Origin: Halobellus captivus
GTDB taxonomy: Archaea; Halobacteriota; Halobacteria; Halobacteriales; Haloferacaceae
NCBI RefSeq assembly: GCF_007655485.1
Contig: NZ_VJXQ01000002.1
Coordinates: forward strand, 531,434-595,433
Direction of reading: 5' to 3'
DNA: 64,000 nt
The translations under genes and the position numbers were made by a program. Below, piece by piece: positions 58,189-58,803 of the stretch (position 1 is its first letter; each line of letters starts with the position of its first letter). The notes under the pieces were generated by a model. The model had not been told where the DNA came from. It ran no database searches and worked only from the letters and a program-made list of their open reading frames with translations.

Positions 58189-58803
58189 TCAGAGTTCGAT
58201 GTCTTTGGTCCGGAACGCGCCCTCGTCGACCTCGGGATCGTACTCCTCGATGGCCGTGAGGACCATCTCCAGCGTCGCCGAGGGGCTCCAGCGCGCGGTG
58301 TTGACCGAGAGATCGTAGAAGGACTGATCGGAGACGTCGACCCCGTAGTACGACTTGTACCGACCGGCCTCGCTGACCTCGCGGACGCGCATCTCGGCCT
58401 CCATCTCCTCTCGGTCGCGCGTCCGATCGACGCGGACCTCATCGGGCGCGTCGAGCCAGATCCGGAGATCCGCACGGTTGCCAGCGAGCCACCCGGCCAG
58501 TCGGGACTCGAGGACGAACGGCTTGTTCGCCGCGCCCCACTGCTCCGCGATCGTCCGGAGGCGACGATCCAGCGCGCGGTCGATCTCGTCGGTCTCATCG
58601 GTCTTCGCGATGAGCTGTGACAGCGACATATCACGCTCGTCGGCGAGTTCGCGGAAGATGTCGCCGCCGGAGACGTAGCCGCAGTCGAGCGCCGCCGACA
58701 GTCCCTCACAGAGCGTCGTCGCACCGCATCCGGGCGGCCCCGATACGGTGATAAAGAGGTTGCTGTCGACCGACCGCGCCGTCGGGACGTCGTCGTCTGT
58801 CAT
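58189..58803 (-). CDS. Cytidylate-kinase-like NTPase lacking the P-loop lysine
   Basis: 204 aa from ATG 58803. It reads as a close relative of archaeal CMP kinase (VSGGDIFRELADERDM, LESRLAGWLAGNRADLRIWL, YYGVDVSDQSFYDLSVNTARW). The P-loop is GPPGCGATTL, with Ala28 where the invariant Lys should be. Later nucleotide-binding residues (Arg in TRDREEMEAEMRVREVSE) remain. It may be a catalytically weakened paralogue, or a binder/regulator. No other cmk is in the window. Confidence 0.85.
   Translation of the reverse strand: MTDDDVPTARSVDSNLFITVSGPPGCGATTLCEGLSAALDCGYVSGGDIFRELADERDMSLSQLIAKTDETDEIDRALDRRLRTIAEQWGAANKPFVLESRLAGWLAGNRADLRIWLDAPDEVRVDRTRDREEMEAEMRVREVSEAGRYKSYYGVDVSDQSFYDLSVNTARWSPSATLEMVLTAIEEYDPEVDEGAFRTKDIEL

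Follow-up and report, generated by a model that had tools for sequence, protein, structure and literature searches.

Can a CMP kinase do without the lysine of its P-loop? The question is raised by a gene of the haloarchaeon Halobellus captivus, situated in a 64,000-nucleotide stretch of contig NZ_VJXQ01000002.1 (positions 531,434 to 595,433; hereafter the window), whose product has alanine where a Walker-A lysine would be expected. This lysine is a routine criterion for telling active from dead P-loop kinases, and its replacement by alanine is a standard dead mutant. An initial annotation, proceeding from the premise that kinases of this fold need the lysine, had suggested that the protein may be either an inactive paralogue with a binding role or a kinase relying on another residue.

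The gene and its product

The gene lies on the minus strand, beginning with an ATG at 58803 and closing with a stop codon that ends at 58189. An alternative TTG start 30 bases upstream would give a protein of 214 amino acids; the alignment of orthologues begins at the ATG. The features discussed below are as follows.

58189..58803, minus strand: coding sequence of the lysine-less paralogue of the archaeal (d)CMP kinase, 204 amino acids (open reading frame, TIGR02173 score, orthologues in the order)
58714..58740, minus strand: P-loop GPPGCGATT, residues 22-30 (Gly22, Gly25 and Gly27 in 141/141 sequences; residue 29 Thr in 137, Ser in 4)
58720..58722, minus strand: Ala28, codon GCG, at the Walker-A lysine position (translation and site readings in orthologues)
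58651..58671, minus strand: NMP-binding segment SGGDIFR, residues 45-51 (Arg51 in 141/141)
58522..58545, minus strand: family-specific motif E-x-W-G-x-x-N-K, residues 87-94 (four-residue insertion)
58489..58509, minus strand: ESRLAGW, residues 99-105 (Glu99 and Arg101 in 141/141)
58360..58434, minus strand: LID region, residues 124-148 (Arg124, Arg141 and Arg148 in 141/141; Arg127 in 140, Arg131 in 136)

The stretch GPPGCGATTL spans residues 22-31, and the GCG codon of Ala28 is at least two base changes away from any lysine codon. The CMP-kinase segments that the initial annotation had listed as retained (VSGGDIF, LESRLAGW and YDLSVNTARW) are indeed all found in the translation. The genome itself (3.35 Mb, 99.3% complete) is haloarchaeal, and the closest named matches of the window protein, 88-93% identical, come from Halobellus strains (L032-L037). 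The normal cmk that was to be sought elsewhere is present in the same genome (L001:1495-2073); it has a lysine-bearing P-loop, GPPGAGKST, is 45% identical to the window protein and neighbours what we take, by eye, to be a truB-like gene.

The window protein matches the model of the archaeal (d)CMP kinase, TIGR02173, over positions 2-169 of 169 with 144.7 bits (cut-off 102.1), and is not a member of the bacterial (d)CMP kinase family TIGR00017 (30.7 bits, cut-off 135.55). Cut-offs are also passed for the Pfam families AAA_18 (86.8, cut-off 29.4), Cytidylate_kin2 (70.4, cut-off 28), AAA_17 (46.9) and Cytidylate_kin, PF02224 (30.2, cut-off 26). With Lys, Thr or Ala placed at residue 28, the protein scores 147.0, 146.1 and 144.7 bits, respectively, against TIGR02173, which barely prefers lysine there, and 34.9, 30.9 and 30.7 bits against TIGR00017. 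A structure predicted from 41 sequences (pLDDT 71.9, pTM 0.74; poor in the LID and at the ends) is closest in fold to 3hdt (Z 16.4, rmsd 3.1, 159 residues aligned) and 3fdi (Z 15.4), followed by the CMP kinases of Escherichia coli (2cmk, Z 14.4) and Thermus thermophilus (3akc, Z 13.9). The match of folds alone names no reaction, because APS, shikimate and gluconate kinases also reach Z 13-14.

A conserved lysine-less clade in haloarchaea

Orthologues, defined by a full-length match at E <=2.3e-80 or, in six genomes, by split hits at 68-77% identity, occur in at least 118 of the 392 genomes sampled from the order (among the matches listed, which extend to E ~7e-58); the carriers comprise 51, 23 and 44 genomes of the families f1, f4 and f7, respectively. 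The site was read in all 118, and the alanine that had drawn attention to the locus proves to be the rule: 105 have alanine, 11 valine, one isoleucine and one leucine. Lysine in sister strains, which the initial annotation had named as the mark of a sequencing error, was seen in none of them, and it is likewise missing from all 41 named haloarchaeal loci (L032-L072). Among 311 genomes outside the order (G392-G702), the best matches reach E 1e-43 to 1e-44 and none falls within the range of the clade, carriers of the lysine-less orthologue in that comparison having E <1e-99.

Conservation was assessed over 141 unique sequences, including one frameshifted copy whose residues after about position 120 are chance. 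All 141 share Gly22, Gly25, Gly27, Arg51, Asp75, Asp79, Glu99, Arg101, Arg124, Arg141 and Arg148, and nearly all have Arg127 (140), Arg131 (136) and threonine at residue 29 (137, the other four having serine). The clade also has marks of its own. Its motif ExWGxxNK at residues 87-94 (Trp in 140, Gly in 141 and Lys in 131 of 141) involves a four-residue insertion that neither the 56 housekeeping nor the 35 outgroup sequences used for the tree possess. Cys26 and Cys41 are kept in 127 and 140 sequences, respectively, and the LID loop is about five residues shorter than in the housekeeping cmk. The NMP helix of the clade has Gln63 (139 of 141), Leu64 (131) and Ala66 (141); in 49 lysine-bearing housekeeping or related haloarchaeal sequences position 63 is Glu (46), position 64 Phe (37) or Leu (12) and position 66 mostly Lys (25) or Glu (15). 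Position 65, Asn in all 49 lysine-bearing sequences of the tree set, is Thr or Ile in the clade.

The dN/dS values of 16 intact pairs from the clade (0.027-0.329) and of seven housekeeping pairs (0.028-0.295) are similar; one more pair, L041-L070 (dN/dS 0.70; 17 pairs in total), was set aside because L070 is frameshifted. Lysine-bearing housekeeping cmk genes were found in all 16 paralogue-carrying genomes in which the housekeeping copy was read. The lysine-less gene is a real, conserved and accessory paralogue.

Several members of the clade depart from the common form. The orthologue of Natronomonas sp. CBA1123 (L070:4001-4627; the same protein as L162 from genome G259) has its frameshift after about residue 120 in the assembly used. 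In Haloplanus ruber and the genus g13 (L052, L157-L161) the LID region is enlarged by an insert of some 25 residues. A subgroup from Haloarculaceae and Halobacteriales bins (L054, L060, L068) has the P-loop GRSGAGVTT and, at low dS, the highest dN/dS among the intact pairs (0.29-0.33).

The P-loop lysine across archaeal CMP kinases

The cmk gene was also read in 35 genomes from within the phylum but not from the order, representing 21 families (30 genomes chosen to spread over families and five from the top of the matches). Here the site is Thr in 28, Ser in one and Lys in only six. The premise that kinases of this fold need the lysine thus finds no support in the family to which the protein belongs: since it is absent from 29 of the 35 outgroup members as well, the Walker-A lysine is no criterion for TIGR02173 membership, and for the same reason inactivity does not follow from its absence. 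A single cmk match was present in 34 of the 35 genomes (G396 has two, of which one was read). Thirty of the outside genomes (29 with Thr or Ser at the site) were searched with TIGR00017 and gave no match over the cut-off, the same search giving one in 10 of 14 control genomes; the matches below the cut-off are mostly the same archaeal gene, with a few elsewhere. Judging from annotation and from no other cmk having been found, the Thr-type enzymes are presumably active.

The Thr form recurs in seven of the 56 housekeeping-type sequences from haloarchaea in the tree set, and the state of the site changes between Lys and not-Lys at least 11 times on a tree of 146 sequences, which marks it as a labile position. 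Within the one phylum sampled, the lysine therefore does not appear to be a fixed feature of the archaeal CMP-kinase family, and it looks dispensable there. The main surprise would be this lability rather than the paralogue itself. Among the best-listed records of the open-access literature, we found no title or abstract opening on lysine-less archaeal CMP kinases. The 2003 classification of P-loop kinases by Leipe, Koonin and Aravind may mention them. Searches of the PDB with outgroup cmk sequences returned no entry titled archaeal CMP kinase (51 of 51 entries; the best 60 of 77).

A family whose members naturally carry Lys, Thr or Ala at this site supplies ready material for studying the role of the lysine, the more so as the Thr form is the sole cmk recognised in many of the sampled archaea. 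It also calls for caution in annotating lysine-less proteins as inactive or as a generic 'AAA family ATPase'.

Some genomes contain further cmk-like copies. Those of three genomes of the family f7 (L236, L303 and L304 from G122, G223 and G179, respectively) have the P-loop GPPAAGTTT or GPPAAGTST, in which the second Gly and the Lys are both altered; L236 shares 49% identity with the window protein, and 86% and 91% with L303 and L304, respectively. Plasmid unnamed2 of Salinibaculum sp. KK48 encodes a cytidylate kinase family protein (L196:4983-5678) with GPPGSGTTT and, ahead of the ESR strand, a long insert; genes annotated as DNA polymerase sliding clamp and N-6 DNA methylase lie nearby. Genome G161 has two housekeeping cmk matches of equal score (E 6.6e-59, 56% identity to the query), L244 (C7:114938-115492) and C4:53448-54002, possibly a duplication or an assembly repeat.

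Phylogenetic position and genomic context

In the careful tree a branch supported at 100/99 separates the lysine-less sequences from all others, and the support is 100 when the P-loop columns are left out. There the clade stands outside the main lysine-bearing housekeeping group (support of that group 83/88); in quick trees built with the P-loop columns removed, it nests weakly within that group, and with such a nesting the absence of the lysine would be a real loss. The AU test does not reject the housekeeping sequences as a single clade (p 0.817), the tree constrained to this grouping being 28.55 log units better. The four Thr-type extra copies (L196, L236, L303, L304) form one long-branched group of unsure placement. 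Family labels change five times on the 50 labelled rows of the lysine-less clade and twice on 26 rows of housekeeping sequences from these three families, which might hint at horizontal spread; with differing numbers of rows and thinned sets, the comparison is only suggestive.

No partner gene or operon common to the lineages was found in 62 context loci (L032-L072, L175-L195). The EamA gene and other neighbours seen in the window are kept only in Halobellus, in MAGs labelled Haloquadratum, in Haloplanus and in genomes G248 and G287, and the clear clusters of neighbours are confined to lineages, being shared by 11 Halorubrum loci or by 8-9 loci of the Natrinema side. The larger clusters 1-3 (20-48 loci) consist of chained mechanical ORFs, about half to two thirds of which overlap the gene itself; given the ORFs that do not overlap it, a small neighbour common to the lineages could conceivably exist. 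A search of viral contigs, sensitive to close relatives only, found no relative of the window protein. Among 72,556 plasmid records there are three matches, of which one belongs to the lysine-less clade and lies on a 987-kb Natrinema replicon; this Natrinema copy is annotated as 'AAA family ATPase'.

Possible function of the lysine-less paralogue

Of the two readings offered initially, a lysine-independent kinase fits the sequences better than an inactive protein. Somewhat better than even (a probability of roughly 0.55), in our estimate, is the reading that the paralogue is an accessory NMP kinase that would act without the P-loop lysine, perhaps on a shifted acceptor; its activity, mechanism and acceptor are all inferred from comparison of sequences. 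The enzyme would use ATP-Mg to phosphorylate a nucleoside monophosphate, with the backbone of the P-loop and Thr29 holding the ATP phosphates and Mg, and with the arginines of the LID and NMP domains (Arg51, Arg101, Arg127/Arg131, Arg141 and Arg148) neutralising the transferred phosphate. The changes in the NMP helix (E63Q, F64L, N65T/I and position 66 to Ala) suggest an acceptor possibly unlike the one that the housekeeping enzyme uses.

Going by the order of motifs, mapped by eye and partly through the E. coli sequence and its numbering, we take Arg38, Arg126, Arg171 and Asp175 of the T. thermophilus CMP kinase to correspond to Arg51, Arg101, Arg141 and Glu145 of the window protein, and Arg153 presumably corresponds to Arg127 or Arg131. 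In the ADP-CDP complex of the T. thermophilus enzyme, Lys15 spans the donor and acceptor phosphates, the LID residues Arg153 and Arg171 bind the transferred phosphate, and Arg38 and Arg126 touch the phosphate of the acceptor (PMC7259600). Among the mapped catalytic residues, the lysine alone appears to be missing from the paralogue. A study of Mycobacterium tuberculosis CoaE reports that the K14A mutant kept 81% of kcat with ATP (2.34 versus 2.886 per min), that R140A gave no reaction and that, as the authors suggest, Arg140 could compensate (PMC3019153); for adenylate kinase, another source gives the LID arginines as the stimulators (PMC9599734). Since the arginines are kept and these precedents exist, a lysine-less CMP kinase working through arginines is plausible. 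The K14A change in CoaE is not neutral: the Km for ATP rose from 56.8 to 86.7 µM, and that for dephospho-CoA from 34.9 to 75.8 (PMC3019153). The only conserved candidates seen for a replacement lysine are Lys94 (131/141) and Lys67 (90/141), and Lys94 precedes a predicted strand, at the end that should face away from the active site.

The passing of the TIGR02173 cut-off, the invariance of Arg141 and the housekeeping-like dN/dS all speak for activity; the shorter LID, the Haloplanus insert of about 25 residues in it and a replacement that is hydrophobic rather than polar speak against it. With Ala, Val, Ile or Leu in the clade and Thr or Ser in the lysine-less outgroup, the state of the clade is not simply that of the outgroup, and since a lysine-bearing cmk is present in all 16 genomes read, activity of the paralogue is not demanded.

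The same two facts would suit a pseudokinase, which would bind CMP or another nucleotide, perhaps also ATP, without phosphate transfer and serve as a nucleotide sensor or as a regulator of a partner; the guanylate-kinase-like domain of MAGUK proteins is a precedent for a kinase turned binding module. We hold this possible but doubtful. The conserved new ExWGxxNK, just ahead of a predicted strand, might be a partner surface, and the quick trees without P-loop columns allow a direct change from Lys to a hydrophobic residue. Pseudoenzymes, however, usually lose several catalytic residues, whereas here the other catalytic positions, the LID arginines included, are kept in nearly all 141 sequences, and the context loci disclosed no common partner gene.

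A reading that joins the paralogue with the wider family, namely that archaeal CMP kinases work without the Walker-A lysine, gained and lost repeatedly, with the charge supplied by LID arginines or by K+ bound from a potassium-rich cytoplasm, and that the hydrophobic haloarchaeal clade is the extreme case with an acceptor that may not be CMP, seems to us unlikely as a whole. Also unlikely is a plain duplicate of the CMP kinase that does no more than the housekeeping copy and in which the site drifted as it matters little: the at least 11 changes on the tree would agree with such drift, but the clade is restricted to hydrophobic residues, and the conservation of its own motif, Cys26, Cys41 and the NMP-helix changes favours a specialised role. 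A pseudogene or sequencing error, of which the single frameshifted Natronomonas orthologue might be a hint, is ruled out for practical purposes by the absence of the lysine in 118/118 genomes and 41/41 named loci together with the low dN/dS.

Comparison with known systems

The archaeal (d)CMP kinase family is already known, and the haloarchaeal paralogue is a variant of it, sharing the match to the whole TIGR02173 model above its cut-off and the order of motifs; most members outside the order (29 of 35) lack the lysine as well. It differs from the housekeeping cmk in having a hydrophobic residue instead of Thr, Ser or Lys, the four-residue WG insert, a shorter LID and an N-terminal extension of about 15 residues, and in being accessory (at least 118 of 392 genomes). 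The closest solved folds, the Cytidylate_kin2 proteins (PF13189) 3hdt and 3fdi, are lysine-less too, with Gly at the site (GSGGR and GSGGH), as the initial annotation had held for this family; they are just 14-20% identical over the fold, their P-loop is GSGG as opposed to GxGATT in the window protein, and their PDB titles read 'putative kinase' and 'uncharacterized protein'. The bacterial CMP kinases of E. coli and T. thermophilus (TIGR00017/PF02224) have the same fold (Z ~12-15) and arginines that correspond by motif order, but they keep the lysine, and the window protein scores far under the TIGR00017 cut-off. M. tuberculosis CoaE K14A, in turn, is a related P-loop kinase that, with Ala in place of the corresponding lysine, keeps the greater part of its kcat (PMC3019153); it is an engineered mutant of a different enzyme.
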